Shown: in pieces, positions 8,706 through 38,590 of the stretch | Position numbering within the stretch: position 1 is the first letter of the stretch | How the letters are laid out: every line of letters starts with the position of its first letter | From: Candidatus Nanopelagicales bacterium | Lineage (GTDB): Bacteria; Actinomycetota; Actinomycetes; S36-B12 | DNA: 51,707 nucleotides | Direction of reading: 5' to 3' | Assembly (NCBI GenBank): GCA_030827125.1 | Contig: JAURFD010000015.1 | Span: 1 to 51,707, forward strand | The notes under the pieces: generated by a model | What the model was told of the DNA's origin: nothing | The model's input: only the letters and a program-made list of their open reading frames with translations | Database searches by the model: none | Program-made: the position numbers and the translations under genes

Positions 8706-8776
8706 GGCGACCTCCTCAGTCAGTGCGCCCTCCCGCCTTGTCCGGGGCGCCATCTCCACCCTAACCCTGGCAGTCC

Positions 8777-9678: not shown

Positions 9679-10194
9679 CTAGTGGCCGACGAGCGACTTC
9701 ACGGCCAGGACACCGCTCACGACCACGACCACCACAGCAACGTACGCAAGCGAACGAAGCCGACTGTGGGGCGCTGAGCGCGCTACCCGATAGCCAACGA
9801 ACATGACGAACAGTAGGAGCAGCGCCCCTGACCACAGGTAGGCCTCCGGGCCAAAAATGAGGATCGGCAGCACAGCGAGCAAGGTGACAGCGGCCCCACC
9901 GACCACCTGTGCCGAGATCACCTTGGAGACCAAAGGCTCCAGCTTGCTCCCCGGCGTCACGAGTCGCGATGACATCCCGAACGCGACCTCGTGGGCCAAA
10001 ACCAGGCCGAGAGCGGTCAGCGCAATGGTCAATGCCAGCCCGGAGTTCGCCTCGATTTCCTCCGACGGTATCGCCGCCATGACCGCGAGGAGAGAAAGGC
10101 TGATGTACAGCGCCATCGTCAGGCCTTCTCGCCAGACCTCTCTGCGCTCATGCTGCATCTCTTCCGCTGGCTCAGGCGCGCTCGATTCCGTCAC
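9679..10194 (-). CDS. Multi-pass membrane protein, 171 aa, unknown function
   Basis: The N-terminus is charged (VTESSAPEPAEEMQHERREVWREG) and is followed by about five hydrophobic helices (ALYISLSLLAVMAAI, LALTIALTALGLVLAHEV, AQVVGGAAVTLLAVLPILIFG, LWSGALLLLFVMFVGYRV, LAYVAVVVVVVSGVLAV). GTG 10194 has AGGGAAGGGAA upstream. No family was recognised with confidence. The roughly 145 nt between this stop and the lipoprotein start contain a short GTGGT/ACCAC inverted repeat and nothing else of note. Confidence 0.6.
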   Translation of the reverse strand: MTESSAPEPAEEMQHERREVWREGLTMALYISLSLLAVMAAIPSEEIEANSGLALTIALTALGLVLAHEVAFGMSSRLVTPGSKLEPLVSKVISAQVVGGAAVTLLAVLPILIFGPEAYLWSGALLLLFVMFVGYRVARSAPHSRLRSLAYVAVVVVVVSGVLAVKSLVGH

Positions 10195-10272
10195 TTGGCG
10201 TTCCCTTCCCTGAGTGGCCGTCGGTGAGGACCACCCAGAGATCCTTGCCCATCGCATTCCTGACAAAGTCGG

Positions 10273-10302
10273 TGGGCCCGACCTCAGAAGAGATCGGGCC
10301 CA
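10273..10302 (-). terminator. Hairpin downstream of nrdJ
   Basis: TGGGCCCGA and TCGGGCCCA form a perfect 9-bp stem around a 12-nt loop, about 80 nt beyond the nrdJ stop. No T-tract. Confidence 0.5.
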
Positions 10303-10381
10303 ACAACTTTCTGCGCCTTCACAGGTGTTCACTCGTGCTCGCCGTCTGGCTGAGCGGGCGCAAGTGGCGAAGCGCTGAGGT

Positions 10382-13204
10382 TCAGCTGCAGCCGGAGGTG
10401 CTCCCGCAGCCTTCGCACACGTAGCACGAGCCCGATGGACGCATCTTCACGCCGCAGGTCATGCACAGCGGCGCATCGGATGCGGTGCCGGTGATCGCCT
10501 CGAGCAACTCCGCGGAAGAGTGCACGTTGGAGGGCATCTCCTTGGGCGCGGCGGCTTCGTCGACGACCGCCTCGACCTCGTCGCCGTCGACATCCTCGGT
10601 CTCAACCGTCTCGACGACCGCTCCCCCGCCATAGGTGTTGGCGACGGTAGCTGCGCGCTCCTCGGCGGTGAAGATGCCGAGCTCGGCGCGCTTCTCCGCG
10701 GGGAGGTAATCCAGGGCCAGACGACGGAAGACGTAGTCCATGATCGACTGCGACATCCGGATGTCGGGATCGTCGGTCAGGCCGGCCGGCTCGAACTTCA
10801 TGTTGACGAACTTCGAGACGAACGCCTCCAGCGGGACGCCGTACTGCAGGGCGATCGAGATCGCGATGGAGAAGGCATCCATGACACCGGCGAGCGTCGA
10901 ACCCTGCTTGCCGAGCTTGAGGAAGACCTCACCGAGGCCATCATCGGGGTAGGAACCGGCCGTCATGTAGCCCTCGGCACCGGCAACGCTGAACGACGTG
11001 GTGCGCGATGGACGCGACTTGGGCAGACGCTTGCGCACCGGGCGGTGCTCGACGACGACGTTGTCGGCGGGCGCCTCGGCGGTCTTGGCCTTGGCATCGG
11101 ACAGCGGCTGGCCGACCTTGCAGTTGTCGCGGTAGATCGCGAGTGCCTTCAGACCCATCTTCCAGCCCTGGAAGTAGATCTCCTCAACCTCTTCGATGGT
11201 CGCGGTCTCGGGCATGTTGACCGTCTTGGAGATCGCACCGGACAGGAACGGCTGCACCGCGGCCATCATCCGTACGTGACCCATCGGGGTGATCGCGCGC
11301 TGGCCCATCGCGGTATCGAAGATCGCGTAGTGCTCGGTCTTGAGACCGGGCGCGTCAACGACGTGGCCGTTCTCGCTGATGTACTCCACGATCGCTTCGA
11401 TGGTCTCGTCGGTGTAGTTCAGGCGCTTCAGGGCCATCGGGATGGTCTGGTTGACGATCTGCATCGAGCCGCCACCGACGAGCTTCTTGAACTTCACCAG
11501 GGAGAAGTCCGGCTCCACGCCGGTGGTGTCGCAGTCCATCATGAAGCCGATGGTGCCGGTCGGCGCGAGGACGGACGCCTGCGCGTTGCGCCAGCCATTG
11601 GCCTCACCGATCCGCAGGCACTCGGCCCATTCCTTCTCCGCCACCCGCAGGACATCGCTGTCCAGGCTGCTCACCGTGCGCACCGCATCGGTGGCCGCAG
11701 CGTGCTTGCGCATGACGCGCTTGTGCGGCTCCTCGTTGCGGGCGTAGCCCTCGTAGGGGCCCACGACGCCGGCGAGTTCGGCCGAGCGACGGTACGACGT
11801 CCCGGTCATCAGCGAGGTGATCGACGCTGCGAGTGCGCGGCCACCGTCGGAGTCGTAGGGCAGGCCCACGGCCATGAGCAGCGCGCCGAGGTTGGCATAG
11901 CCGATGCCGAGCTGACGGTAGGCGCGGGTGGTCTCGCCGATGGGCTCGGTCGGGAAGTCCGCAAAGCAAATGGAGATGTCCATCGCGGTGATGACGAACT
12001 CCACCGCGCGACGGAAGGTCTCGGCGTCGAAGCTGCCGTCCTCCTTGAGGAACTTGAGCAGGTTCAGCGACGCGAGGTTGCAGGAGGAGTTGTCGAGGCT
12101 CATGTACTCCGAGCACGGGTTGGACGCGGTGATGCGGCCAGTCTCGGGGTTGGTGTGCCAGTCGTTGATGGTGTCGTCGTACTGGATGCCTGGATCGGCG
12201 CAGGCCCACGCGGCCTCGCTCATCCGGCGGAAGAGCCCCTTGGCGTCGACGGACTCGATAACCTCGCCGGTCTTGCGGCCACGCAGACCGAATTCGGTGT
12301 CCTCCTCGACCGCGCGCATGAACTCGTCGGAGACACGCACGGAGTTATTGGCGTTTTGGTACTGGACGCTGGTGATGTCGGAGCCGCCGAGGTCCATGTC
12401 GTAGCCGGCATCGCGCAGGACCCGGATCTTGTCCTCCTCGCGCACCTTGGTCTCGATGAACTCCTCGATATCCGGGTGATCAACGTCGAGCACGACCATC
12501 TTGGCCGCGCGGCGGGTGGCGCCACCGGACTTGATGGTGCCGGCGGAGGCATCCGCACCGCGCATGAAGGAGACGGGACCGGAGGCGGTGCCGCCGGAGG
12601 ACAGAAGTTCCTTCGAGGAGCGAATCCGGGAGAGGTTCAGGCCCGCACCCGAACCGCCCTTGAAGATCAGGCCCTCCTCGCGGTACCAGTTCAGGATCGA
12701 GTCCATGGTGTCGTCGACAGCGAGGATGAAGCAGGCCGACACCTGCTGCGGGGACGGGGTGCCGACGTTGAACCACACGGGCGAGTTGAAGCTGAACACC
12801 TGGTGCAGCAGCATCCAGGTGAGCTCGTGCTCGAAGATCTGCGCGTCCTCCTCGGTGGCGAAGTAACCGAACTCACGGCCCGCCTTGGTGTAGGTAAGGA
12901 CTACGCGATCGAGCAACTGCTTCAGGCTGCGCTCGCGGGTATCGCTGCCGACCGCACCACGGAAGTACTTGGTCGTGACGATCGTCGAAGCGTTGACACT
13001 CCAGAAGTCAGGGAACTCGACCCCGCGCTGCTCGAAGACCACGTCACCGGTCTTCCAGTTGGTCTGCACGACGTCTCGGTGCTCCCACGTCACCTCGTCG
13101 TACGGGTGAACACCCGGTGTCGTGAACAGGCGCTGCATGGTGAGCCCAGTGCGGGCGCCTTGCTCAGCCTGGGCCGACGCGTGGTCGTTGCTGATCTCGG
13201 TCAT
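10382..13204 (-). CDS. nrdJ: Vitamin B12-dependent (class II) ribonucleoside-diphosphate reductase, 940 aa
   Basis: Makes deoxyribonucleotides from ribonucleotides using adenosylcobalamin, so no oxygen is needed for radical generation. Seen: the substrate-binding region VSACFILAVDDTMDSI with an active-site Cys, GGSGAGLNLSRIRS, and the central NPCSEYMSLDNSSCNLASLN with catalytic Asn-Cys-Glu. The C-terminal Cys-rich tail (CMTCGVKMRPSGSCYVCEGC) supplies the redox-shuttling thiols of this family. The full length is typical. ATG 13204 has AAGGGAG upstream. It lies 35 nt after nrdR and is surely in its operon. No cobalamin riboswitch was recognised ahead of it. Confidence 0.95.
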   Translation of the reverse strand: MTEISNDHASAQAEQGARTGLTMQRLFTTPGVHPYDEVTWEHRDVVQTNWKTGDVVFEQRGVEFPDFWSVNASTIVTTKYFRGAVGSDTRERSLKQLLDRVVLTYTKAGREFGYFATEEDAQIFEHELTWMLLHQVFSFNSPVWFNVGTPSPQQVSACFILAVDDTMDSILNWYREEGLIFKGGSGAGLNLSRIRSSKELLSSGGTASGPVSFMRGADASAGTIKSGGATRRAAKMVVLDVDHPDIEEFIETKVREEDKIRVLRDAGYDMDLGGSDITSVQYQNANNSVRVSDEFMRAVEEDTEFGLRGRKTGEVIESVDAKGLFRRMSEAAWACADPGIQYDDTINDWHTNPETGRITASNPCSEYMSLDNSSCNLASLNLLKFLKEDGSFDAETFRRAVEFVITAMDISICFADFPTEPIGETTRAYRQLGIGYANLGALLMAVGLPYDSDGGRALAASITSLMTGTSYRRSAELAGVVGPYEGYARNEEPHKRVMRKHAAATDAVRTVSSLDSDVLRVAEKEWAECLRIGEANGWRNAQASVLAPTGTIGFMMDCDTTGVEPDFSLVKFKKLVGGGSMQIVNQTIPMALKRLNYTDETIEAIVEYISENGHVVDAPGLKTEHYAIFDTAMGQRAITPMGHVRMMAAVQPFLSGAISKTVNMPETATIEEVEEIYFQGWKMGLKALAIYRDNCKVGQPLSDAKAKTAEAPADNVVVEHRPVRKRLPKSRPSRTTSFSVAGAEGYMTAGSYPDDGLGEVFLKLGKQGSTLAGVMDAFSIAISIALQYGVPLEAFVSKFVNMKFEPAGLTDDPDIRMSQSIMDYVFRRLALDYLPAEKRAELGIFTAEERAATVANTYGGGAVVETVETEDVDGDEVEAVVDEAAAPKEMPSNVHSSAELLEAITGTASDAPLCMTCGVKMRPSGSCYVCEGCGSTSGCS

Positions 13205-13239
13205 GCGGGTGTCTCCCTTGTGGTGTTGTCGGGTGGTGC

Positions 13240-13779
13240 TTACGCGTCGACGTCGGCCGATGCGGAGTCTTTGGCGGTTGCGAAGTCGGAAGTGGAGTCG
13301 GGATCGGGTGAGGTGGAGTCGGTAGCGGCCAGCGATGCCTCGGTGCGCAGCAGGGCGATCTCGGCCTCGAAATCCTCCAGGGAGTCAAAGGATCGGTAGA
13401 CCGAGGCGAACCGCAGGTAGGCGACCTCATCGAGGTCACGCAGGGGTCCGAGGATGGCTACGCCCACCTCACCTGCGGGGACCTCAGCGGCGCCGGTCGC
13501 GCGTACAGCGTCCTCGACCCGCTGGGCCAGGAGGGCCAGGTCGTCATCGGAGACCGGGCGACCCTGGCAGGCCTTGCGCACGCCGTTGATGACCTTGGCC
13601 CGGCTGAAGGGCTCGGATACGCCGGATCGCTTGGTCACCGACAGGACCGCGGTCTCGGCGGTGGTGAAGCGGCGACCGCAGGACTGGCACTCGCGCCGGC
13701 GGCGGATCGCGGCGCCTTCGTCGGCCGTCCGCGAGTCCAGCACGCGGGAGTCGTCCTCGCGACAGTACGGACAACGCAT
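13240..13779 (-). CDS. nrdR: Transcriptional repressor NrdR, 179 aa
   Basis: ATP/dATP-sensing repressor of ribonucleotide reductase genes. It begins MRCPYC. The N-terminal zinc ribbon has CPYC near the start and CQSCGRRF about 28 residues later. The ATP-cone domain follows ([20 protein letters not shown] through [19 protein letters not shown]). A 30-residue Asp/Ser-rich tail extends beyond the usual ~150-aa length. ATG 13779 was chosen for the conserved MRCPYC start and an AAAGGGGG site. First gene of the nrdR-nrdJ operon, with a NrdR-box palindrome upstream. Confidence 0.95.
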
Positions 13780-13814
13780 GAGATAGACCCCCTTTCGGCG
13801 CGTCGAGGGCCATC

Positions 13815-13878
13815 TGTGGATAGCCCTGCGGATGATCTGGGGACAACCTGTGCACTTCACACCACAACCTGTGGATGA
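13815..13878 (-). promoter_or_regulatory. Cluster of three DnaA-box-like sites upstream of nrdR
   Basis: On the minus strand: CTATCCACA (13815-13823), TTGTCCCCA (13838-13846) and TCATCCACA (13870-13878). Each is an 8/9 match to TTATCCACA or TTGTCCACA, all in the same orientation. They lie between nrdR and its NrdR-box. Possible coupling to DnaA is an inference. Confidence 0.4.
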
Positions 13879-13891
13879 ATTACACCGGTGT

Positions 13892-13909
13892 CACTACTAG
13901 ATGTAGTGG
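13892..13909. promoter_or_regulatory. NrdR-box palindrome
   Basis: CACTAC-TAGAT-GTAGTG is a perfect inverted repeat. The 16-mer CTACTAGATGTAGTGG fits the NrdR-box consensus ACACWATATATWGTGT at most conserved positions. A weaker candidate partner (ACACCACAACCTGTGG, 13859-13874) lies 35 bp away centre to centre, slightly more than the usual three helical turns. Confidence 0.6.
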
Positions 13910-13970
13910 CACCTTAGACGGGCTTGCCCCCGAGCGCAAGAGCCAATTCAGGGCGTGTCGCCCCGTTGCG

Positions 13971-14037
13971 TTCGTTGACTGGCGAGTTGTTGACGCTTTT
14001 GCGGCCCAAAACCGTCAACAACGCGCCACTCAACGAA
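13971..14037. repeat. Long palindromic element, family 2 copy 1 (intergenic)
   Basis: Two 30-bp arms (13971-14000 and 14008-14037) separated by the 7-nt loop GCGGCCC pair at 27 of 30 positions. The 5' arm starts TTCGTTGACTGGCGAG and ends TTGACGCTTTT. The 3' arm starts AAAACCGTCAACAAC. It is clearly related to the palindrome inside lhr (40499-40559). It lies between the nrdR control region and the end of the LysM gene. Apart from this element and the sites above, 13780-14058 holds no gene. Confidence 0.8.
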
Positions 14038-14058
14038 GGAGAGCCGAGAAGTGGCCGG

Positions 14059-14430
14059 TCAGCTCGCGGGGATGGCGAGCACCTGGCCGGGGGTGATCGA
14101 CGAACTCGACAGAGCGTTGGCCTGCTTGATCTGCGCCACCACCACACGAGGATCACCGGCCGGGTCAACCCGCTCGGCGAGGGTCCACAACGTGTCACCC
14201 GGCTGCACCATCACCGTCGACCAACCCTGAGGGGCCGCCCCCTCGGGTGCCGAGGCGATCGCCCGCCACGGACCGAGGACCACCACGGCCGCCGCGACCA
14301 CAAGCAGGACCAGAAGTCGGGCACGCCGCGTCAGCCGGACACCGCCTTCTCCCCCATGGCGACGGCACGGCCGAGCCGAACGCGTTACCGATGTCGTGGC
14401 GCCCATGGGGGCGGCGTACGCAGTGGCCAT
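14059..14430 (-). CDS. LysM-domain membrane-anchored protein, 123 aa
   Basis: The N-terminus is basic, followed by a single transmembrane segment (LLVLLVVAAAVVVLGPW). The C-terminal LysM domain (VMVQPGDTLWTLAERV through ITPGQVLAIP) binds peptidoglycan. In many actinobacteria a gene of this type sits next to lexA, like the SOS-induced division inhibitor yneA of Firmicutes. The two SOS boxes in the intergenic region to lexA support DNA-damage induction here. ATG 14430 follows GGAAGGGAG. The division-inhibitor role is inferred from position and control, not shown by sequence. Confidence 0.8.
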   Translation of the reverse strand: MATAYAAPMGATTSVTRSARPCRRHGGEGGVRLTRRARLLVLLVVAAAVVVLGPWRAIASAPEGAAPQGWSTVMVQPGDTLWTLAERVDPAGDPRVVVAQIKQANALSSSSITPGQVLAIPAS

Positions 14431-14481
14431 GGCCCTACTCCCTTCCAGTCCACCGGATCGCCCCCTGTGCCGGGGTCTATT

Positions 14482-14511
14482 CGAACCGGTGTTCGATCGA
14501 ACGTATGTCCC
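14482..14511. promoter_or_regulatory. Tandem LexA (SOS) boxes upstream of the LysM gene
   Basis: CGAACCGGTGTTCG (14482-14495) is a perfect match to CGAAC-N4-GTTCG. CGAACGTATGTCCC (14498-14511) directly follows with 8 of the 10 specified bases. They are about 52-80 nt upstream of the LysM gene start. Confidence 0.85.
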
Positions 14512-14549
14512 ATTGGTACCACACGTCACACGACACGTCCAGGATTTTT

Positions 14550-14563
14550 CGAACAGGTGTTTG
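14550..14563. promoter_or_regulatory. LexA (SOS) box of lexA
   Basis: CGAACAGGTGTTTG matches the SOS consensus at all but one specified base. It is about 125 nt before the lexA start, consistent with autoregulation. The leader between also contains a perfect ATGGGAG/CTCCCAT hairpin at 14597-14616. Confidence 0.8.
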
Positions 14564-14688
14564 ATCTGTGTCGCTTCCGTCGCTAACGTCGTGGCCATGG
14601 GAGGAGGTTCTCCCATCGGTCTGACAGTGAGACCGGGCCACCGTTGGTCCGCCTCGACCGCCAGGCCGCCTGACTCCCCGGAGGTGCC

Positions 14689-15429
14689 ATGGCTCGCCGC
14701 CCCGCCCCAGACGCTGATCTGCCCGCCGTCACGCCGGCTCCCGACGACGCCACCGCCGGCACCGCAGCCGAAGCGGACTTCGCGGACGGCCTCACCCCGC
14801 GCCAGCGCGACATCCTCGATGTCATCCGCCGCACGGTTGAGGATCGCGGCTATCCCCCGAGTGTTCGCGAGATCGGTGAGGCGGTGGGCCTGGCCTCACC
14901 GTCGAGCGTGGCGCACCAGCTCGGCGTCCTTGAGCGCAAGGGCATGCTGCGACGCGACGCCAACCGCCCCCGCGCCGTGGTCGTCTCCGACCCGGACGTC
15001 AGCACTGCACCTGACGAGGTCGTCGATCCAACCGGCAGTGGCGACGCCATGCCCACGGCCGCCTTCGTGCCGGTGCTTGGTCGCATCGCCGCCGGTGGCC
15101 CGATCCTGGCGGAGGAAGCCGTGGAGACCATCTTCCCGCTCCCCCGCGAGGTGGTCGGTGATGGCGAACTGTTTCTCCTCAAGGTGGTCGGCGACTCGAT
15201 GGTCGATGCGGCGATCTGTGACGGCGACTGGGTCGTCGTACGTCGTCAGCCCACCGCCGAAAACGGCGAGATCGTGGCCGCGCTGCTGGATGACGAGGCG
15301 ACCGTCAAGACGCTGCAGCGTCGCGATGGTCACACGTGGCTGATGCCGCACAACCCGGCGTACTCACCGATCGATGGCGACCACGCGAGCATTCTCGGCC
15401 GCGTCGTGACGGTCATCCGCCGCGTCTGA
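14689..15429 (+). CDS. lexA: SOS-response repressor LexA, 246 aa
   Basis: Repressor of the DNA-damage regulon; RecA filaments trigger its self-cleavage. The N-terminus has about 40 extra residues, then the winged-helix DNA-binding domain ([34 protein letters not shown]). The cleavage site Ala-Gly is in [11 protein letters not shown], the catalytic Ser is in VVGDSMVDA and the catalytic Lys is in EATVKTLQ. The start ATG 14689 is preceded by GGAGGTG. Divergent from the LysM gene with SOS boxes between. All key residues are present. Confidence 0.97.
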
Positions 15430-15447
15430 CCCTCTCGGCAAGCCGAG

Positions 15448-17379
15448 TTAGTACGTCGAGGCGAGGCGTTCGAGGGCGCCGACGACCTTGGCCCGATCGG
15501 TGCTGAACCACAGCGGTGGCAGCGACTCGCGCAGCGCGCGCGAATAGCCCGCGGTCGCGAGCCGAGGGTCGAGCACGGCCACGACCCCACGATCCTCGGG
15601 CGAGCGAATCAGCCGTCCGGTGCCCTGGGCGAGCAGCAGAGCGGCCTTTGGCACCGACACCGCACGGAAACCACTGCCGCCTTGGGCGTCGACGGCTTCC
15701 TGCCGGGCCGACACCAGTGGGTCATCGGGTCGCGGGAACGGGATGCGATCGATGATCACCAGCGAGCACGTCGACCCCGGCACATCCACGCCCTGCCACA
15801 GCGACAACGTGCCCACCAGACTTGCCGACTCCTCCGCGCTGAACTTCGCCACGAGGGGTGCGGCGGTCTCACCCTTCTTCTGAACGATCACCGGCGTCTT
15901 GACCCGGACGCGCAGGTACTCGCCGACACGTTCCACGGCGCGCCAGGACGAGCACAGGATGAGGGACCGCCCACCGGACGCTGTGACGAGGTCACCGATC
16001 TCGTCGAGGGCCTCTTCGGGGATGCCGTCTCGGCCCGGTGGCGGCAGGTGGCTCGCGACGTACAAGATGCCCTGGGCGGAGTAGTCGAATGGACTTCCCA
16101 CATCGAGCCCGGTCCACGCCCGATCTTCCAGACCGGACTGCGCGCCGAGCCCTACCTGTGACGCCATCGCGTCGAGGCCACCACCCAGACTCAAGGTCGC
16201 GCTGGTGAGCACGACGGATCGCTGTGCGAAGAGCGCATCACCAAGGAGCGCCGACACCGACAGCGGCGCCATGCGCACCACCCCGCTGTCGACCCAGGCC
16301 ACATCGTTGGAGGCCAGGGTGAGTAGTCGGCCGGCCACCTCGAACACCTCATCAAGTGCCCCTCGAGCGCGCTGTCGTGCGGCCATGGTGTCCACGTCGG
16401 TGTCGGAGGCGATCTGCGCATTGGCCGCGCGCGCCGCATCACGCACCGACGTCAGCGCCAAGGTGAGGTCCCGACCGGGGTCGCGCACCCGCCCACTGAT
16501 CGCCGACAGGGAGGCATCGAGGGCACTAGCGGCATCGACGAGGTCGGCGTACGCCTCATCGGTAGTGGACGATCGCGCGCGCGTGGCGGCCACTTCGACG
16601 GCGCGACCGGAGAGTTCGCGGGTGAGGGCCTGTGTCGTACGGTCGACGAGTTCATGCGCCTCATCGATGACAATGGCGCCGTGCTCGGGCAGCAGCGGGA
16701 TGCCCTCGAGCACATCGATGGCGAGCATCGCGTGGTTGGTCACGACGAGGTCGGCTCGCTGCGCCACTTCCCGGCGTCGCACGGTGAAGCATTCGGTGCC
16801 ATACGGACACTTCGACTCCCCTACGCACTCACGTCGTGACACCGAAAATCCCCGCCACACGCGCGGGTCGATCGAATCACCGAAGTCGTCTCGGTCGCCG
16901 GTCTCGGTCTCCAGCGCCCACTCACGCACCGCGAGTGCCTGCTGTGCGAGTGCTGACCGCGGGACGGCGAGCAGCGCGTCGGCCTCGTCGTCTTCGCCTG
17001 GCTCACTGCGATGCAAGCGCTCGAGGCAGACGTAGTTGTGCCGACCCTTGAGAACGGCGTACGTGACCTCGCGACCGAGCAGCGGCTCCAGCGCCGCCGC
17101 GACGACAGGGAGGTCGCGATCCACGAGTTGCTTCTGCAGGGCGAGCGTCGCGGTGGCAACGATGACGGACTCCCCGGTCTGCGCTGCGTGCAACGCCGAC
17201 GGCACGAGGTAGGCGAGGGACTTCCCGGTGCCGGTGCCCGCCTGCACGAGGAGTCGCGGTGGCGCGCCGTCACCATCGAGGGCGTCGGCTACCGCCTGGG
17301 CCATCTCGAGCTGTCCGGACCGAGGCTCGCTGCCCAACGCCGCCGTGGCAAGCGACAGCGCTTCCGCCAGGTCACTCAC
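15448..17379 (-). CDS. dinG: DinG/XPD-type ATP-dependent DNA helicase, 643 aa
   Basis: Superfamily 2 helicase with an iron-sulfur cluster, acting 5'-3' on branched DNA or R-loops. Walker A is in LLVQAGTGTGKSLAYLVP and the DEAH box is in VIDEAHELVDRTTQ. Four Cys that could hold the 4Fe-4S cluster are seen in YVCLERLH and CVGESKCPYGTECF. Motif VI-like sequence is QGTGRLIRSPEDRGVV. Start GTG 17379 overlaps the hflX stop by 4 nt (GTGA), so it is translationally coupled to hflX. No separate promoter was seen. Confidence 0.9.
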   Translation of the reverse strand: MSDLAEALSLATAALGSEPRSGQLEMAQAVADALDGDGAPPRLLVQAGTGTGKSLAYLVPSALHAAQTGESVIVATATLALQKQLVDRDLPVVAAALEPLLGREVTYAVLKGRHNYVCLERLHRSEPGEDDEADALLAVPRSALAQQALAVREWALETETGDRDDFGDSIDPRVWRGFSVSRRECVGESKCPYGTECFTVRRREVAQRADLVVTNHAMLAIDVLEGIPLLPEHGAIVIDEAHELVDRTTQALTRELSGRAVEVAATRARSSTTDEAYADLVDAASALDASLSAISGRVRDPGRDLTLALTSVRDAARAANAQIASDTDVDTMAARQRARGALDEVFEVAGRLLTLASNDVAWVDSGVVRMAPLSVSALLGDALFAQRSVVLTSATLSLGGGLDAMASQVGLGAQSGLEDRAWTGLDVGSPFDYSAQGILYVASHLPPPGRDGIPEEALDEIGDLVTASGGRSLILCSSWRAVERVGEYLRVRVKTPVIVQKKGETAAPLVAKFSAEESASLVGTLSLWQGVDVPGSTCSLVIIDRIPFPRPDDPLVSARQEAVDAQGGSGFRAVSVPKAALLLAQGTGRLIRSPEDRGVVAVLDPRLATAGYSRALRESLPPLWFSTDRAKVVGALERLASTY

Positions 17380-18800
17380 GACGTGGGGTCAGCGCTCGGC
17401 GCGTCAGTGAAGGGAGCCAGCCGTGCGGCAAGGTCGGCGCGCACGCGGGCGCGTAGTCGGGTGCCCTCTGGGCCGTGCTCGGCCTCGAGCACTTCACCGT
17501 GCTCATGCACGAGCGCGACGAGATCACCCCGGTCATACGGGATCAGTGCGTCGACTTCCACCTCCGGCCGCGGCACCCGGGCATCAAGCGCGGCCAGCAA
17601 CTCGTCGATGCCCTCACCCGTGTGTGCGCTCACGACGATGGCGTCGGGTTCCATCCGTCGCAGGCGCGCGAGGTCGAGCGGATCGGCGATGTCGGCCTTG
17701 TTGATGACGATGAGTTCGGGCAGATTGCCCGCGCCGATCTCGGCAAGCACCGATCGGACCGCGGCCATCTGCTCCTCGGGTTCAGGATCTGAACCGTCCA
17801 CCACGTGCAGAACCAGGTCGGCGTCCGTCACCTCCTCGAGTGTGGAGCGGAAGGCTTCGACGAGGTGGTGGGGCAGGTGGCGAACGAAGCCGACCGTGTC
17901 GGCCAGCGTGCATTCGCGTCCGCTCGGCAACTCCAGTCGCCGCACCGTCGGATCCAGCGTGGCGAACAAGGCGTCCTCGACAAGCACTCCGGCACCGGTG
18001 AGGTGATTGAGCAGGCTCGACTTGCCGGCATTGGTGTAGCCGGCAAGTGCGACGCCGGGAGTCCCGGCGCGTTCGCGTGCTCCACGCTGGGTGCGACGTA
18101 CGCGCTCCATGTCCTTGAGTTGCCGTCGCAACACGGTCATCTGATCGCGGATGCGGCGGCGGTCGGTCTCGATCTTGGTCTCACCGGGTCCGCGGGTGCC
18201 GACGCCGCCGGTGGCGCCACCGGCCCGGCCGCCCGCCTGACGGCTGAGCGACTCGCCCCAGCCGCGCAGCCGTGGCAGGAGGTATTCCATCTGGGCCAGG
18301 GAGACCTGGGCGCGTCCGGCCTTGCTGCTGGCGTGCTGGGCGAAGATGTCGAGAATCAACCAGGTGCGGTCGACGACCTTGACCTTGACGACGTCCTCGA
18401 GATGACGCAACTGGCCGGGGCTCAGTTCTCCATCGCAGATGACGGTGTCGGCGCCGGTCGCCACGACAATGTCGCGGAGCTCGCGCGCCTTGCCCGAACC
18501 GATGTACGTCGCCGGATCAGGGCGATCTCGACGCTGGATGAGACCTTCGAGCACCACGGCGCCGGCGGTCTCGGCGAGTGCAGCGAGTTCGCGCAGGCTG
18601 CGCTCGGCGTGCCAGGCCGTGCCCTCAGTCCACACGCCGACGAGCACGACCTGCTCCAGGCGAATCTGGCGGTATTCGACCTCGGTGATGTCCTCGAGTT
18701 CGGTCGACAGTCCCACGACGCGGCGGAGCGCATGGCGCTCCTCCAGGTCGAGCGTGCCTCCGGTGACCTGATCGTCGTCTAGAGCCACGCGGCAACCCAT
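17376..18800 (-). CDS. hflX: Ribosome-associated GTPase HflX, 474 aa
   Basis: GTPase that binds and splits stalled 70S or 50S particles. The N-terminal HflX domain includes RPDPATYIGSGKARELRD and LSPGQLRHLEDV. A coiled-coil linker (ETDRRRIRDQMTVLRRQLKDM) is followed by the G domain: G1 GYTNAGKSSL, G3 DTVGF, G4 NKAD. The frame opens at ATG 18800, overlapping the end of dapF by 22 nt. GTG 18788 is an alternative and the ribosome binding site is weak for either, as expected for coupled genes. Middle gene of dapF-hflX-dinG. Confidence 0.93.
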   Translation of the reverse strand: MGCRVALDDDQVTGGTLDLEERHALRRVVGLSTELEDITEVEYRQIRLEQVVLVGVWTEGTAWHAERSLRELAALAETAGAVVLEGLIQRRDRPDPATYIGSGKARELRDIVVATGADTVICDGELSPGQLRHLEDVVKVKVVDRTWLILDIFAQHASSKAGRAQVSLAQMEYLLPRLRGWGESLSRQAGGRAGGATGGVGTRGPGETKIETDRRRIRDQMTVLRRQLKDMERVRRTQRGARERAGTPGVALAGYTNAGKSSLLNHLTGAGVLVEDALFATLDPTVRRLELPSGRECTLADTVGFVRHLPHHLVEAFRSTLEEVTDADLVLHVVDGSDPEPEEQMAAVRSVLAEIGAGNLPELIVINKADIADPLDLARLRRMEPDAIVVSAHTGEGIDELLAALDARVPRPEVEVDALIPYDRGDLVALVHEHGEVLEAEHGPEGTRLRARVRADLAARLAPFTDAPSADPTS

Positions 18801-31244: not shown

Positions 31245-34200
31245 CTACCCCAGGGCGATGACGTCCTGATGCACCAACCGCAGTCCCGTCGTGCCGCGTG
31301 ACGTGATCCCACCGTCGGTGCGCCACTGCTCGTACTGCTCGATGACCAAGCGATGCCGACCACCGCCGACGCTACTGCCCAGGTTGATCTTGCCTGTCCA
31401 TCGACCCTCACCGCTGCGGTAGGTGCCCGAGATCTCGGTGCGCGAGACCTCCTGCCACAGCACGGCATCGGGCCCAGGGGTGTCGTCGTCGCTCAGCCGC
31501 TCATGGACCAGATACGTCTTGCCTGGGCCGGCACCGAGTTCATTGCGCTGGTATGACGGCCCGGTCAAGGTGACGTCAGCCTGGTACCCCACACGAGCCG
31601 CCTTGCGCAGGGCCACGGTGGCCGTACGCGCCGGGTCGAGCTGCACGACGTCGAGCAATGTCACCGGTGACAGCCGCAGGTCCGCAGGTGCGCCCGACTG
31701 GTAGCGAGCCAACGCGAGCCGGATGAAGGGGCGGTAGGCAGCATCGATATCAATATCGAGATCGACGTACCACTGATCGCGCTCGGCATCCCAGCCGATC
31801 AGTGAACCATCGGCCGCCTCACGCCCCACTCGGTAGGTCACAACCGCGACCTTCTTCGAACGATCCTCGGCGAGCCGCACTCCCTCGATTGCCAGATCAC
31901 GGTTGGTGAACTGCGGCGCCTTGGGCCACGAAGCCGGCAGATTGCCGCCACCGGTGACCGCCGGATCTCCACCCCAGCGACTGACATAGTCGGTCACGGC
32001 TCCCGCGCCTGAACGCGGCCGCACGAGCACCGCCAGGTCCTCATCGATGCCTGAGGTGAACCACGGGCGCTCCAGATAGACGCGGAGCGAGGCACTCGAC
32101 CGTGTCGACGTGACGCGGCTGCTCGTCGTTGCGGTGCTGGCGGGATTCCAGGTGAAGGCGGGGATGACCGCTGCCACATCCGGTGCCTGCGGCCGCGCAC
32201 TGGCTGGCAGGGTGAAGGGCACCGCGGGGTTGCCGATCGTGGAGTCGCTCGTCGACAAAGTAACCGGGTCGGTGATCGCAGACAAGACGATGGTCCCGGT
32301 CGGGATGGAGCCAGTAGCCGTCGGCGTGATTGATCCGGCTGCCGCATTCTCGGTGAAGTCGACACCGACCGTGCCCGTGACGACCTCCCCGCCACTGCTC
32401 CACTGCACTCGCGCACTGCCCGGCACGAGTTGCTGCGCTGCACCCGTCGAGTCGGGCAGGACGATGATCGCCGTTGTCGAGCCCGCGGTGTGCGTGGTCT
32501 CGCGCAACTGCCGGAAGTATTCGGCGTATCGGGAGTACGCGGTACCGACAAGGTCGAGGTCATAGCGCCGCGTGTCCGGCAGCTGGACTGTGGCCTCCAT
32601 CGCATACGACGTACTGCCGGTCGGGCCACCGGGCGCAGGGTTGGCGACGTTGACCGTGCCGATGTCCCCAACCGAGTTGCGCTGGATCTGCGGCGCCGCT
32701 GCCCCCGGACCGCCATCCACACCGGTGGTCAACGTGCCCGTGAGCGAGACCGACTCGGTGGACGGCTCGTCGATGTGCATGGTGCCGGAAATGGCGCACT
32801 GGATCTCGCCGGGATCGCGCGACCCACTCCACGTATCGAGGCCGCCGAAGTACGGCGCGCTGACCGGGCGCTTCGTCGCGTGCACGACGGTGATCTCGCG
32901 GTAGGGGCTGAGTTGCCAGTAGGCGCCCTTGGCCGCATCGGCCGCCGACGCCGTCGACTTCACCCGCTCCCACAGGTCGAGTAGCGACAGGTCACCGCTC
33001 GGGATCGAAGACGACGTACGCAGTAGCTGCGTGCGGCCGGGAGCAACCTGCAGATCGATGGTCTGACCAGAGACCGTCGCACCCGGTGTGCCGGTGCCGC
33101 CCACACTCAACTCCAGCGGAACGAGCGACGGCCATGTCCCGCCGAAGGTGGCGCTCGCCTCGGTGACTCCCCCACTCGCGGTGGGCACACCACGCAGCAG
33201 GACACCAGAGGTGATCGGATCGGGGTAAAACGCCGTCGTGCCGTCCGCGGGAGTGGACCAGTCGAACCCGACGACGTCGCCGTACGCGACATAGCCCGGG
33301 GTCGACGTCCCATAGAACGACGCATCGCGGGTGGCGATCTGCGAGTACTTCGCCGGATCGGGCTTGCCGCTCGCGTCGTCAAGCAGTCCGTGCTGCTCGA
33401 CGAGCCACGGACTGACGCGCGTCGGCGTCAGCCAACGGATCGCCGTTTGGCTCGGCTCGACAGCGGCACCGCCACCGAGGCTGCGCACGACCGCGATTTC
33501 GGAGGACTGCATCCAGGCGACGGGATAGCCATCCTCGCCACCGAGGTTGACGATCTCACCCTTGATGTCCCCAAGCTCGACGATCTCGCCCTTGATGTCG
33601 CCGAGATAGACCACCGGGCTCATCACCGGCTCATGGCGCAGATATGTCTTCTCTAGGCGGGCGCTGCGTGGCTCGACATCGGTGAGCTTGCGGGACTGTC
33701 CGCCGAGGAAGACCTGGCGCAGGCGCAATTGGTACGTCGTACCGAACCGCAAGGTCGGCAGTTGCGCACCACCAGGAGGGGCGACGTAGTCGATGGTGGC
33801 ACCGAATCCAGGCGGCGGAGGCGACAGTGGATTGATCGCGGCTGCCTCGCTGTCGGGATCGATCGACTTGCCCGGCCGCTCGATGGACTGGCTCCACCCA
33901 GTCCAGGCACTGACCACCGGCATATAGCGGTACTCATTGGCCGTGCTGCCCGTGGCTGACGCGCCGCCTGGCTCGGTCCATCCCTCATCGGGGCCGAGGT
34001 CAATCGTGCCGGCTCCGTAGGTGTCCGGATCGGGTCGCCAGATGCCGTTGCGCAGATTGAGGCTCAGCCAACCGCCCAGACCGCTGGGGCGCACGTCGAG
34101 CTTGTAGCCGACGACGATGTCCTCGGCGTTCGCAATCTGGATTGTGCGAGCCGTCGGGTCGACCGACTTCGCGATATTCCACTGCCGGTCAAGTTCACCG

Positions 34201-35378
34201 TGGGTGCGCCTCGCGAATTCCGGTTGCACCAGTGACATGCCCACGCTTGACCTCGCGGGCGTGCCCGCACGCTTGGGACTTGCTGGTGTGCGAAGGCCTT
34301 CGACCTCGGCTCGCTGAGCGCCTGTCGCGAGCGTGGCGGTCGCCACCGTCTCGGTGCCGATCTCGCTGGTGACGACGGCCCACTCCTTGCCGTCGAGGTT
34401 GATGTCGACGAACCCCACCTGAGTCGGCCCGGTGCCGGAGAAGCGGGGCTGAAACAACGGAGTCGACTTGTCGAGTGTCGCGACCGCCCCCTGCGGAATG
34501 TCGGTCGTGGAAGGATCCGGTGAATAGAACGGGTTGATCCGGATCTCGACGGCACCGCCGGTACCCGTGGGGATCGGCGCCGGGTTGCCACTCTTGTCGC
34601 GCATGTCCGCGGGGTCGATCTCGAGATCGACGATAAAGCCGATCTTGCGCAGCAGAAGCGGGTGGCTATCCAGCACGGAGAACTTCTCGTGGAACTCCCA
34701 TTGCGGCCAGGGCACGACGTAGCCGGGATCGAGCATTCCGGGGACGTTGGCTTCGGTGTCGAGCGGCTCGACCATCTGACGCATCATGACGATGGCGGTC
34801 TGCACGCCATTCGGAGTGGTGGTGTCAGGGTTGGTCGTGTACTTCTGGGTGGATAGGTCGTCATCGATCTGCCGGCTGATCTGCTCGTATGTCGATTCGT
34901 TGACGTCGTAGCCGGCGAGTGGGCCGGCGAGCAGAGCGGAGATCTCCGGACGGACGGCACGCGACCCACCGAAGACCTGTTCCTGCAGCCGATCCATCGC
35001 CGCCGAAAGCCCCGCGACGTCGGCTGAGCGGATCTTGGACTTCGAGTAGTCGTCGGCGACGTACGACCGGACCGTCGTTGAGTCCGGGAACATGGTCTGG
35101 AAGACCTTGGCATCCGGGTCCGCCGAGACGCGCTTGGCCGGTCCCTCTACGCGACCCCCCGGCGACCCCGGCACCTCGAGAGCCGCCCCGAAGTTCATGC
35201 CCGTGACGATCGAGCACCACTTGCCCCCGGCAAGGTCCGGGACGCTGGAGAGTTTGTCCTCGCCACCGGATCCTCCGGACGACACCTGCGGCGTGATGAC
35301 GAGCGTCACGCTCAACATTCCGCGCGGGGTCACGCCACTGGCGACCGGGGTCCAGATGAACGTCGTACTCGTGCTCAT
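31245..35378 (-). CDS. Giant uncharacterised protein, 1377 aa, partner of the Tat protein
   Basis: No family recognised with confidence. It begins MSTSTTFIWTPVASG followed by MLSVTLVITPQVS, without a signal peptide. The sequence is beta-rich with few Cys and long Ser/Thr/Gly/Pro linkers. Recurrent features are YLRHEPVMSPVVYLG, the tandem LGDIKGEIVELGDIKGEIVN, and C-terminal strands (TVALRKAARVGYQADVTLTG, RHRLVIEQYEQWRTDG). No transmembrane helix or enzyme motif was seen. ATG 35378 was chosen over 35393 because it overlaps the upstream stop as ATGA. That overlap implies fixed stoichiometric production with the 1071-aa protein. How a protein without a signal would reach a Tat-exported partner is unclear; hitchhiking through the Tat system is one speculative route. 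Confidence 0.8.
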   Translation of the reverse strand: MSTSTTFIWTPVASGVTPRGMLSVTLVITPQVSSGGSGGEDKLSSVPDLAGGKWCSIVTGMNFGAALEVPGSPGGRVEGPAKRVSADPDAKVFQTMFPDSTTVRSYVADDYSKSKIRSADVAGLSAAMDRLQEQVFGGSRAVRPEISALLAGPLAGYDVNESTYEQISRQIDDDLSTQKYTTNPDTTTPNGVQTAIVMMRQMVEPLDTEANVPGMLDPGYVVPWPQWEFHEKFSVLDSHPLLLRKIGFIVDLEIDPADMRDKSGNPAPIPTGTGGAVEIRINPFYSPDPSTTDIPQGAVATLDKSTPLFQPRFSGTGPTQVGFVDINLDGKEWAVVTSEIGTETVATATLATGAQRAEVEGLRTPASPKRAGTPARSSVGMSLVQPEFARRTHGELDRQWNIAKSVDPTARTIQIANAEDIVVGYKLDVRPSGLGGWLSLNLRNGIWRPDPDTYGAGTIDLGPDEGWTEPGGASATGSTANEYRYMPVVSAWTGWSQSIERPGKSIDPDSEAAAINPLSPPPPGFGATIDYVAPPGGAQLPTLRFGTTYQLRLRQVFLGGQSRKLTDVEPRSARLEKTYLRHEPVMSPVVYLGDIKGEIVELGDIKGEIVNLGGEDGYPVAWMQSSEIAVVRSLGGGAAVEPSQTAIRWLTPTRVSPWLVEQHGLLDDASGKPDPAKYSQIATRDASFYGTSTPGYVAYGDVVGFDWSTPADGTTAFYPDPITSGVLLRGVPTASGGVTEASATFGGTWPSLVPLELSVGGTGTPGATVSGQTIDLQVAPGRTQLLRTSSSIPSGDLSLLDLWERVKSTASAADAAKGAYWQLSPYREITVVHATKRPVSAPYFGGLDTWSGSRDPGEIQCAISGTMHIDEPSTESVSLTGTLTTGVDGGPGAAAPQIQRNSVGDIGTVNVANPAPGGPTGSTSYAMEATVQLPDTRRYDLDLVGTAYSRYAEYFRQLRETTHTAGSTTAIIVLPDSTGAAQQLVPGSARVQWSSGGEVVTGTVGVDFTENAAAGSITPTATGSIPTGTIVLSAITDPVTLSTSDSTIGNPAVPFTLPASARPQAPDVAAVIPAFTWNPASTATTSSRVTSTRSSASLRVYLERPWFTSGIDEDLAVLVRPRSGAGAVTDYVSRWGGDPAVTGGGNLPASWPKAPQFTNRDLAIEGVRLAEDRSKKVAVVTYRVGREAADGSLIGWDAERDQWYVDLDIDIDAAYRPFIRLALARYQSGAPADLRLSPVTLLDVVQLDPARTATVALRKAARVGYQADVTLTGPSYQRNELGAGPGKTYLVHERLSDDDTPGPDAVLWQEVSRTEISGTYRSGEGRWTGKINLGSSVGGGRHRLVIEQYEQWRTDGGITSRGTTGLRLVHQDVIALG

Positions 35379-38300
35379 GCGAACGCTCCACACCAGTCGG
35401 TCCAGTCGGCTTGATCCATGACGTCAGCAAACGTGATGGGCGTCGGCTCGGGCTCGAGCGCGGGCTCGACGGCCGCACGTGCCTGCCCGCGGCGTGCGCT
35501 CGGCACGGTCGGCTTGGGACTGCCAGTGATCGTGCGGCGCATCGTGATGCTGACCGACTTCTTAATGCCACACACCTTGACCTTGACCGTGCAGGCGGCC
35601 TGGCCCACGAGTTTGACCGGATCACCTGGACTGCTCGGTATCTGCAGCGTCATGCCGAGACACAGTTCGATCGCGAGAGTGACGATGCCCAGAACCTCAA
35701 CCCGACCCTTGATGCAGACGAACGCCGTGAGCGCCATCTCCGTCGTACTGCCGCGGCCACTGATCTCATACTGCAAGCCGACCGTGCAACTGACACCACC
35801 GGAGGCGACGCCGAGATCGATCTCCAGCGCGGCCTTGATGGCGACGCCGATGTTCATGTACTCGACGCCATCGAGGCCAATGTCGAGGCCGAACCAACCG
35901 CCACCGCCGATGCCCATCACCGTGACGGCGAAGGGGTCGTCAGGTGCGGAGAAGCCGAGCTCGAACCGGACCGGGTCTTCACCGAAGGGCAGGTTGATCG
36001 CGACTCGCGTAGCCAGACCGCTCAGGGTCATGGCGCCCAGGCCAATGCTCGGCACCTCGAGGCTGAAGCCGGTCGTGATGGACCGTGCATCGATGTTGAG
36101 GATGGGTCCGTTCCCGCTGCCGAAGGCGAGGAAGCGCGCCATCTTCTCCAGGAAGGCAAGCGCGTCTCCGAAGACGATCTCGCCGATCTCCACCTGCATG
36201 TCGCTGGCTCGCCCGGAGCCAGCGCTGAAGCCGATGCGGTCGAGGATGACGTAGGCGAAGGCCTTGGAGCCGAAGAAGACGATCTTCAGATTGGTAAGCG
36301 CACCCTCGGCCTTCCAATAGGCCTCCGCGTTGGTCGCGCTGGCCTTGGCCTCGACAAGGATGTAGAAGTCGGCGCGGTTGGCCTCGGGGAGGAGCGGATT
36401 AAGTGGCCTGAGCTCCGGGCGCCACTCGTAGTGGACGAAGACCTCCGTGGGGATATCCGGCAGGTCGCCGTTGAATGACCGATCTGTGGCAAAGGCCGGT
36501 GCCTTCGGATTGGGCTCATAGGCGCCGGTCGACGGATTGCGCTGCAACATGTCGATGGGATCAGGCAAAAGATCGGCGAGCGAGATCCCCCCAAAAAGGG
36601 TGAAGCCGCGCAACATGCTCGCTGGGTTGATCTTGGGAGTCGCTACCGACAGCGACGGCAGGTCGCCGGGCACTCCGGGCAGCGCGCCGGTGACACGGCC
36701 GAAGCCGGAGACACCCATGCTCGGCGCGCTGATGCCACCACCGCGCTGTGCATCCGCGCCGACGCTCTGGCTGCCGATGCCTTCGAGGTAGATGCCGAGG
36801 TCAGTGCTACCGATGCCGCTGGAGAGATAGACGGAGGGGAAACTCACATTGACGCTCTGCGAATTGCCCGCCATTGCGGACGGGCCATCGGCGTTGACGC
36901 TGGCCCGCTCCATCTTGGGGAAGGAGTACGGGCGTCGCTCGCGTGCGAGGTCGCTGGCCGATCCGCTCGGGGTGCCGAGTTCGAGATACCAGTCGAGACT
37001 CACGGTCGGCATCGACGTCGAGCCGTCGACTCCCCCATCATCCGCAAAGGCGATGTAGACACCGCGCATCTGTGCCCGACGCTGGTTCTCGGGTAGGCCG
37101 TTGAAGTAGTTGCGAAGGGCCTGAGCACCCGTGCGAGTGAAGTTGGCCCGCTTGCGGTTGACTGCCTTGTCCTCGGCGAAGAGGACGGGAGTGTCGAATG
37201 TGATAGCGCGCCCCGCGCGGTCGATTCCGGTCACGGTGAAGGTGAAAGGGTCGCCGGACGCGGCTTGTGGCACGAACACTGTGCAGCCCCTCCACTGTCC
37301 GCCGAGCGGGGTGGCCGCACCGGTGACCGCAGGCGAGGCCAGGGTTCGGAACCGAATACGACGGAACGGCGTACCGCGGCCGCTGGACGGAACACCACTG
37401 GCCGCATCGAGATCAATGCTCGGCGTGTTGATGATGATGCGCTGCGTGAGCCGTTCGAAGGCACGGACCGTCCCTGATCGGTCCGCGAGGAATTCGCGCG
37501 TCACCTCCTCGACCAGTGTTGCGGGAACGGCGAAGGGATAGACGAAGCCGACGCGTGTCGTACGGATGTAGGTGTCGCGGCCGTCCCAGCTGCGTTGCTG
37601 CCATGAGGTGAGCGAAGCGACGCCGGGCTCGTTCCATTCGCCGAGCGCCCGCATCGTGCCGCCGAGGGCGGACAGGGTGAGGTCGACGTCGACGGGATCG
37701 GCCAGGCCGCCCTTGACCGCTGCGGTGCCGGCAGCGTTGGAGGTCATGCCGGTGAGGCGTGCGATGTCGGAGCGGTCCTGCGGGTTGGGCCGCATCTCGA
37801 ACGGATAGTTGGGCAGGCCTGGCTTCTTCACGATGTTGGGCGGAGTGGTGCGCAGCATCTTGGCGGCATTGCGATCGCGGAGCCAGATGACGCGCACGGT
37901 GTCACCGGAGTGGTCGTAGCCGGTGGGATCACCCTTGCTATCGAACGTGCGAGTGGCCAGTCGGGTCTGCCACACCTCGGTGCGGCCGTCGTGCGTGGTG
38001 CCGACGAGCGGGTGTTCCCAGCCCGACTCGTCGCTGGGGGCCATCACCATGAACCACGGAATCTCGATGGCGGTCGACGTCGATGCCGGGTTGCGGTAGA
38101 CGACGTCGGTTGACGGGATGCGTTCGTCTTGCGGATACGCCGCCAGGGATCCGACGCGAGGTTCGCACTCCAGCCAGGTCAGCAGACCCTCGCGCGTGGC
38201 AGGCAAACCGGCCGACGGCAGCGTGAAGGCCAAGCGACTGGCCTGCGCCAGACGTGCGCCGACCGGCGTGGATTGCCGGGTCGTCGTACTGATCTGCTCG

Positions 38301-38590
38301 ATGAGGTGCTGGGGGCCGAGGTCGACCACCATGATCGCCGGGGTACGGCCGTCGGCCACGATGCGGCCACCGCTGATGCGCGCGTTGGTGAAGGAGACCG
38401 TGAGGCGCTGCATGCTCTCGCGGTCGCGGATAGCGAAGTCCAAGGTGCCTGCACGGGCGCTGATCGCCCGAAGTGCGGCCTCGGCGCTCCCCGGGACAGC
38501 AAGGGCCGCCGCGACGAGTCCTGCGCCGCCGAGGATCGCGCGACGACTGACCTGGATGGGTCCGTCGGTGGTCGACTCCTCATCGGCCAT
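35375..38590 (-). CDS. Giant Tat-signal protein of unknown function, 1071 aa
   Basis: Twin-arginine signal: SRRAILGGAGLVAAALAVPG at residues 15-34 with a likely cut after SAEA. The middle part is beta-rich. The C-terminal third is a Gly-rich repetitive beta region (GNGPILNIDARSITTGFSLE, FAVTVMGIGGGGWFGLDIGL, IDLGVASGGVSCTVGLQYEI) that resembles, from memory, the ends of other large uncharacterised bacterial proteins. It finishes with a charged, Trp-containing tail (FADVMDQADWTDWCGAFA). ATG 38590 has GGAAGGGGAG upstream. Tat export suggests folding in the cytoplasm, perhaps with a cofactor or with its operon partner. No enzyme motif was seen. Confidence 0.8.
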   Translation of the reverse strand: MADEESTTDGPIQVSRRAILGGAGLVAAALAVPGSAEAALRAISARAGTLDFAIRDRESMQRLTVSFTNARISGGRIVADGRTPAIMVVDLGPQHLIEQISTTTRQSTPVGARLAQASRLAFTLPSAGLPATREGLLTWLECEPRVGSLAAYPQDERIPSTDVVYRNPASTSTAIEIPWFMVMAPSDESGWEHPLVGTTHDGRTEVWQTRLATRTFDSKGDPTGYDHSGDTVRVIWLRDRNAAKMLRTTPPNIVKKPGLPNYPFEMRPNPQDRSDIARLTGMTSNAAGTAAVKGGLADPVDVDLTLSALGGTMRALGEWNEPGVASLTSWQQRSWDGRDTYIRTTRVGFVYPFAVPATLVEEVTREFLADRSGTVRAFERLTQRIIINTPSIDLDAASGVPSSGRGTPFRRIRFRTLASPAVTGAATPLGGQWRGCTVFVPQAASGDPFTFTVTGIDRAGRAITFDTPVLFAEDKAVNRKRANFTRTGAQALRNYFNGLPENQRRAQMRGVYIAFADDGGVDGSTSMPTVSLDWYLELGTPSGSASDLARERRPYSFPKMERASVNADGPSAMAGNSQSVNVSFPSVYLSSGIGSTDLGIYLEGIGSQSVGADAQRGGGISAPSMGVSGFGRVTGALPGVPGDLPSLSVATPKINPASMLRGFTLFGGISLADLLPDPIDMLQRNPSTGAYEPNPKAPAFATDRSFNGDLPDIPTEVFVHYEWRPELRPLNPLLPEANRADFYILVEAKASATNAEAYWKAEGALTNLKIVFFGSKAFAYVILDRIGFSAGSGRASDMQVEIGEIVFGDALAFLEKMARFLAFGSGNGPILNIDARSITTGFSLEVPSIGLGAMTLSGLATRVAINLPFGEDPVRFELGFSAPDDPFAVTVMGIGGGGWFGLDIGLDGVEYMNIGVAIKAALEIDLGVASGGVSCTVGLQYEISGRGSTTEMALTAFVCIKGRVEVLGIVTLAIELCLGMTLQIPSSPGDPVKLVGQAACTVKVKVCGIKKSVSITMRRTITGSPKPTVPSARRGQARAAVEPALEPEPTPITFADVMDQADWTDWCGAFA

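Follow-up and report, generated by a model that had tools for sequence, protein, structure and literature searches.

A conserved pair of giant genes, with a twin-arginine signal on the first, in Actinomycetota and on proteobacterial plasmids

Export through the Tat translocase by hitchhiking, in which a subunit without a signal leaves with a partner that carries one, has precedents in HybOC and PaoABC of E. coli, described in PMC4273604 as combining one Tat-signal subunit with a signal-less partner. The gene pair presented here, A and B, has the same layout. Unlike HybOC and PaoABC, however, it contains no redox cofactor or enzyme domain that we could find, it is far larger, and it belongs to unrelated sequence families. 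Moreover, its cassette stands twice beside a TatA gene of its own, and many A relatives have no signal. We place A-B with the Tat hitchhikers for its mode of export only. Two classes of surface protein also invite comparison. Cell-wall-anchored proteins with CWB2 (PF04122) repeats usually carry their own signal; their likeness to the pair lies in three CWB2 stretches that end the B protein of one relative (G286, locus L089), whereas the B studied here has neither CWB2 nor a signal. Large extracellular proteins with Ig/fn3-type repeats come to mind because the C-terminal part of B resembles tandem beta-sandwiches. However, no Pfam fn3 or Ig match was found in this B or listed for 21 relatives, A-B has a constant partner in A, and the structural Z values given below reflect a common arrangement only.

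The pair lies in a window (the whole stretch of DNA analysed) of 51,707 nucleotides, and its features are collected in Table 1. The gap from A to B is -4, the arrangement of translationally coupled genes. Taking the first in-frame start, the B open reading frame would span 31245-35393 (-) and begin at a GTG five codons 5' of the ATG, whereas profile comparison of loci places the conserved start at the ATG. GC3 of A and B is 0.81-0.82, and proteins at the same locus in sister genomes are 60-93% identical to A and B. By the Nei-Gojobori method, dN/dS values were 0.086/0.64 (G004), 0.178/1.02 (G003) and 0.179/0.98 (G005) for A, and 0.247/1.13 (G005) and 0.034/0.69 (G004, first 541 codons only) for B, giving ratios of about 0.05-0.22. 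A and B are under purifying selection. This selection, together with the GC3 and the sister-genome identity, argues that both are real genes and not chance open reading frames. Furthermore, the reading frames, translations and start conservation all agree with what an earlier note, made from the sequence alone, had claimed of the lengths, the twin-arginine start of A and the ATGA overlap.

Table 1. Position of the gene pair and its parts in the window
Feature	Position	Strand	Description
Gene A	35375..38590	-	1071 aa, 113.6 kDa; upstream member; stop codon counted in
Gene B	31245..35378	-	1377 aa, 145.5 kDa; no signal peptide; stop codon counted in
ATGA overlap	35375..35378	-	Bases common to the TGA of A and the ATG of B; translational coupling
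Twin-arginine signal peptide of A	38477..38590	-	Residues 1-38, SRRAIL ... AEA; cleavage site by inspection
Gly-rich C-terminal region of A	35522..36082	-	Residues 837-1023; long predicted beta strands (alignment; low-confidence model)
C-terminal part of B	31248..32513	-	Residues 956-1377; beta-rich; sole part modelled with some confidence

The window pair has recA-like and SDR-like genes to one side of it and MFS- and Lhr-like genes to the other, all named by eye. Some of these neighbours stay beside it in G003, G004, G005 and G010. Since they are kept in sister genomes, this is an old chromosomal locus and not a fresh insertion. The genome assembly is 2.6 Mb in size. It also holds a second, diverged pair at C9:7802-15204, again with an ATGA overlap, whose A is 35% and whose B is 36-41% identical to those of the window. 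Four genes lie 3' of this second pair. They encode an fn3 protein that matches SGNH weakly (Pfam E 0.064, under the cut-off, with motifs read by eye), an fn3/TIG protein, a small protein with a Tat signal whose weak match to a barrel is also under the cut-off (E 0.082), and an Hcp-like protein that matches PF05638 (E 2.6e-13); signal peptides were judged by eye. Counterparts of all four, linked by blastp, trail the pair in G007 in the same order, and that of the Hcp-like gene also matches PF05638.

Neither A nor B matched anything in Pfam, NCBIfam or PHROGs (E up to 10) or among PDB sequences (E up to 1), and PADLOC returned nothing for A, B, their paralogues or the four linked proteins (E up to 1). 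Family profiles of 21 rows each matched no PDB sequence at E up to 5, and A and B showed no relation to each other by hhalign. Pfam, NCBIfam, PHROGs and PDB yielded no enzyme or cofactor domain for the window pair, and none stood out in the scanned relatives, 21 of A and 21 of B. A match of the pair to a characterised family, which had been named as what would count against it, did not appear in Pfam, NCBIfam, PHROGs, PADLOC or PDB. Scanning of the relatives gave scattered matches: CWB2 at E 1.8e-46 on one of the 21 B proteins (that of G286), PG_binding_1 on a single relative (L088; E 0.00017, below its cut-off), a weak LEA_2 match on a single relative among the 21 A and 21 B, and an apolipoprotein helix model on 2 of the 21 A (best E 5.3e-05). 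The 21 B relatives matched 12 PHROG families with one member each (best E 2.6e-22), several of them named endolysin and one a major tail protein with an Ig-like domain (E 3.5e-06); we take these matches of single relatives to be wall-binding additions. Among the papers listed by searches of the open-access literature without preprints, no title or abstract opening describes the A-B pair, and a search for the protein accessions of six relatives returned none. To judge from sequence, the A and B families have no known relative in anything searched.

We sought relatives of the pair in genomes, plasmids and viruses. Among 40 genomes (own included, 11 of them of the window's genus), A was present in 6 and B in 7, all of that genus. 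Among 396 genomes of the phylum (own included), the A profile (A7) matched 14 and the B profile (A8) 15, some rows of A3 and A4 being left out of these profiles. Strong matches numbered 12 for each and fell in identical genomes, G131 was a weak, divergent case carrying both, and weak one-sided matches occurred in G306 (A only) and in G193 and G315 (B only). Plasmid records with B relatives numbered 10, 11 and 15 with the window, Cupriavidus and Sinorhizobium B as query, respectively, and came from Streptomyces, Rhizobium, Sinorhizobium, Ensifer, Bradyrhizobium, Agrobacterium, Ruegeria, Cupriavidus and Diaphorobacter. Phage records held no relative of B, and viral contigs held none by the A or the B profile; a viral origin was rejected on these grounds.

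The two genes are kept together. The adjacency set comprised 31 loci, in three of which (L087, L092, L146) the start of B fell outside the profile match and in one of which (L143) nothing matched B; fragments of B lying at contig ends (L017, L040, L045, L100) were not counted. At all 27 loci with the B start covered, A lies directly 5' of B on the same strand, with gaps of -4 to +42 bp and the -4 gap at 10 of them. The annotated gap at L087 is 15 bp, and at L146 the start of A is fused to the end of B in a deletion-like manner. Five further alphaproteobacterial loci (L153-L156, L158) have A followed by B, to judge from profile matches and from the ends of annotated genes or ORFs, with B split in two at L155, while at L157 the B profile did not recognise the gene after A. 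Truncated B genes without an A match were found in Ensifer (L159), Bradyrhizobium (L163) and Rhizobium Pop5 (L164). To judge from these comparisons, the distant A-B relatives are one conserved cassette of Actinomycetota and of alpha- and betaproteobacterial plasmids. Homologues routinely found apart had been named as the other observation that would speak against the pair; instead, A was upstream at 27 of 27 loci, the 12 genomes with strong B matches were the same 12 with strong A matches, and adjacency was preserved in Actinomycetota and Proteobacteria with the three truncated B genes as the exceptions.

The translation of the window A carries VSRRAILGGAGLVAAALAVPGSAEA near its N-terminus and passes a simple Tat rule (RR motif, hydrophobic stretch and AxA-type site), and the genome encodes TatC and two TatA/B/E proteins. 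Across the family, 16 of 31 A entries passed the rule versus 15 of the 270 other ORFs at these loci, and these signals occur in both phyla; the window's genus supplies 8 of the 16. The entries include an ORF at L157 (7633-11223) that the A profile did not recognise. A of Rhizobium WYJ-E13 is a doubtful pass, via an upstream ORF extension only, while A of L091 and L155 look Tat-like by eye and missed the rule. Outside the 31, A of S. meliloti LMB1 has a Tat-like start in a segment with ITRRDFLGAAAAAP. The remaining 15 of 31 entries missed the rule, and the A starts of S. xanthophaeus, R. ruizarguesonis TP23, Diaphorobacter and Cupriavidus have no Tat signal. Therefore, Tat export is not universal in the family and, since about half of the relatives examined are without a Tat signal, the cassette may also act inside cells.

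The Tat signals cluster on the B tree. On a tree of 26 B proteins (13 Tat, 12 no-Tat and one unlabelled, G269, whose A is in two pieces) the Tat label needed 2 changes compared with a mean of 8.8 after shuffling, and 0 of 500 shuffles were as low. LMB1 was labelled Tat by eye and WYJ-E13 no-Tat, since the motif is absent from L084, the near twin of WYJ-E13. Left out of the tree were split, partial or truncated B (L091, L092, L100, L101, L155, L159, L163, L164), weak or remnant loci (L143, L146, L157) and further rows of the window's own genus or order (L017, L037, L039-L054), two of them, L041 and L045, being complete or almost complete. Rows with Tat are found on several deep branches in each phylum; those without it fall into two clades. 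Such a pattern would suit an old Tat signal lost twice, on a tree that is unrooted, has several long branches and contains near-copies that aid clustering; alternatively, the signal may have been gained later.

B itself shows no signal-like stretch in its first 70 residues at the 27 loci with the start covered (maximum 17-residue hydropathy 1.58). Nevertheless, the B that ends in CWB2 stretches, the only one of the 21 scanned, is paired with an A that has a Tat signal. On plasmid pC of S. meliloti LMB1, B is followed at 49 bp by a TatA gene, and another follows the truncated B of Ensifer adhaerens, where the A gene is missing. Searching 72,556 plasmid records with this TatA as query gave 9 matches at E 1e-3, including LMB1 and Ensifer; the other 7 are not among the B-positive plasmid records. 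The suggestion of the earlier note that the two proteins may be exported together thus gains indirect support from CWB2 on a signal-less B, from TatA beside B and from Tat signals in two phyla, but Tat export is not a trait of every member of the family, 15 of 31 A entries missing the rule.

Structure prediction of the single proteins, which had been proposed as a check, gave a useless AlphaFold model for A (mean pLDDT 33.7) and some confidence only for the last 420 residues of B. The model of B residues 183-1377 has a mean pLDDT of 44.5, and its C-terminal part reaches about 85 in places and is low elsewhere; the alignments behind the A and B models, drawn from the window's own proteins and from related loci, comprised 7 and 12 sequences, respectively. 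Residues 1084-1377 of B resemble tandem beta-sandwich domains. VIA placed a sandwich domain of GH2 first (Z 8.7, rmsd 2.8, 99 residues aligned) and also matched retromer VPS26, arrestins and the A chains of two Tc toxins (Z 7.5 and 6.7; 102 and 109 residues). Foldseek returned IL-17RA, ClfB, arrestin and others, with query TM of at most 0.10 among the 50 matches listed. We read these matches as a common beta-sandwich arrangement and not as a sign of kinship. The predicted fold of B would suit a structural or binding role.

The combined mass of A and B is 259 kDa in the window, rises to 345 kDa in R. phaseoli and reaches 527 kDa in R. ruizarguesonis NZLR24, while mature A alone is about 110 kDa in the window and one Rhizobium A is 334 kDa by itself. 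One review (PMC6708511) quotes an upper limit of about 150 kDa for Tat cargo, which co-export of A and B at 259-527 kDa would exceed. Tat co-export at such a size would be new.

Several neighbours of the cassette resemble secreted hydrolases. One is the gene with a weak SGNH likeness after the second pair. In R. phaseoli, a zinc-metallopeptidase-like gene overlaps the end of B (HELLHLLGVDH, by eye), and in Ensifer a matrixin-like gene follows TatA (HEFGHCLGLGD, by eye). Further candidates, which may or may not be secreted, are an M35 endopeptidase and a phospholipase C near the pair in Ruegeria, an M23 gene 3' of the truncated B of Bradyrhizobium, and a patatin near the pair in R. ruizarguesonis TP23. 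The hydrolase neighbours vary from lineage to lineage, and the recurrence of putative secreted hydrolase-like genes near the pair is no more than a lead.

The explanation we prefer, to which we would give nearly an even chance, is that A and B are two subunits of an undescribed giant beta-rich complex that leaves the cell folded by Tat, with B hitchhiking, to form a scaffold. The overlapping genes would allow A and B to be made side by side, and the two would fold and associate in the cytoplasm. The twin-arginine signal of A would then take the complex, already folded, through the Tat translocase, and the signal-less B would leave as a hitchhiker. Outside, the complex might be a non-enzymatic surface or secreted scaffold or a binding assembly, which the co-encoded secreted hydrolases may serve in several lineages. 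Where A has no signal, the clade would either have lost it secondarily or put the same complex to use inside the cell. The proposal that the pair is undescribed and possibly co-exported withstood both of the observations named in advance against it, and the mechanism past the Tat signal of A is what we infer. A larger claim, which is possible but rather doubtful, is that of a giant two-component substrate and folded Tat export at 250-530 kDa, far above the accepted limit, with a dedicated TatA in some lineages that enlarges or specialises the translocase, and a new extracellular assembly in Actinomycetota and Proteobacteria.

The main rival, export of A only, with B as a cytoplasmic folding or quality-control partner that holds the giant A until Tat accepts it and then remains inside, seems to us unlikely. 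It would explain why B has no signal of its own, a dedicated chaperone would suit the strict coupling and adjacency, and the mature A of the window is below the 150 kDa limit (PMC6708511). However, one B has cell-wall-binding CWB2 repeats, and the C-terminal part of B resembles beta-sandwiches common in extracellular proteins; B is here the larger of the two, and the 334 kDa Rhizobium A is over that limit without any partner. Moreover, known Tat chaperones are small and B is unlike them. Lower still we rate a Tat-exported cofactor enzyme of ordinary kind with a small and a large subunit, which is very unlikely: a Tat route with a signal-less partner is typical of redox enzymes (PMC4273604), but the domain searches above turned up neither an enzyme nor a cofactor domain, Cys occurs only twice in B, and the predicted folds, of low confidence, are beta-rich.

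The pair could instead have originated as a cytoplasmic conflict or defence-type plasmid module, with Tat export as a side branch. Its sporadic presence (14-15 of 396 genomes), its location on plasmids, the two clades without a signal on A, and the dpdE-H, N-6 DNA methylase and nuclease/helicase neighbours in some alphaproteobacteria would all agree with this, although such neighbours are usual on plasmids. PADLOC, which matched none of the window pair, the paralogues and the four linked proteins, also matched none of three B genes or pieces from distant loci, a piece of A, the unrecognised ORF that lies 5' of this piece, and 3 of 4 neighbours; its sole match, to the small fourth neighbour in one relative, was weak (E 0.0084). 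In the window's genus the pair sits amid housekeeping genes (recA-like, MFS/Lhr-like) and is kept in sister genomes, and the Tat-bearing members stand on several deep branches of the tree, so that we consider a defence origin quite improbable, more so than the export of A only and less so than a cofactor enzyme. Least credible of all, and in our view very nearly negligible, is a role for the pair in a contractile injection or type VI-like apparatus. It is brought to mind by the Hcp-like gene after the second pair, with its counterpart in G007, and by matches of single B relatives to the PHROG tail families phrog_807 (E 3.5e-06) and phrog_31 (E 0.039). However, Hcp-like genes occur in 4 of 11 genomes of the genus (own included) and not at the window pair, the phage-type sheath model PF04984, as distinct from the T6SS VipA/VipB models, has no match in the genome, and neither phages (for B) nor viral contigs (for A or B) hold a relative.

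If the preferred reading of a co-exported A-B complex is true, a widespread exported complex without a named family has been overlooked, and it would offer a natural test of the maximal size of folded cargo for the Tat translocase. TatA beside B on two rhizobial replicons would then be a natural example of cargo accompanied by an export component of its own. Moreover, the 3-10 kb "hypothetical" genes on plasmids of Streptomyces, Rhizobium, Diaphorobacter and Ruegeria would gain a testable role.

A second, diverged pair of A (the twin-arginine protein) and B (its coupled partner) is encoded in the same genome as the window. Its downstream genes encode an fn3 protein with weak SGNH similarity, an fn3/TIG protein, a small protein with a Tat signal and an Hcp-like protein; genes linked to this set are found in identical order in another genome (G007, locus L041).

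Some relatives of A exceed 1300 aa (e.g. at loci L085, L086, L095, L096 and L098), with parts falling outside the profile match, and 2/21 A proteins scanned matched an apolipoprotein helix model (best E 5.3e-05). Two loci where A carries no twin-arginine signal, by a simple motif rule or by eye, share a gene 3′ of B whose product has a cysteine-rich end that looks zinc-ribbon-like by eye. On an Agrobacterium vitis plasmid, a 3039-aa A and a split B are followed by genes annotated as dpdE-H. Lastly, the remnant in G247 joins A's start directly to B's end, the arrangement that a single internal deletion would leave.

Coordinates of features at loci with relatives of A and/or B
Feature	Locus	Position
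Second A-B pair, span including downstream genes	L033 (G000:C9)	7802-18626
TatA gene directly 3′ of B, Sinorhizobium meliloti plasmid	L087	13265-13432
TatA gene directly 3′ of truncated B, Ensifer adhaerens replicon	L159	15428-15565
B homologue, CWB2 cell-wall-binding repeats (PF04122) in C-terminal part	L089	9436-14988
Shared gene 3′ of B	L090	12245-13198
Shared gene 3′ of B	L097	12782-13681
A-B fusion remnant	L146	8042-9260
A. vitis plasmid locus	L155	6189-28900
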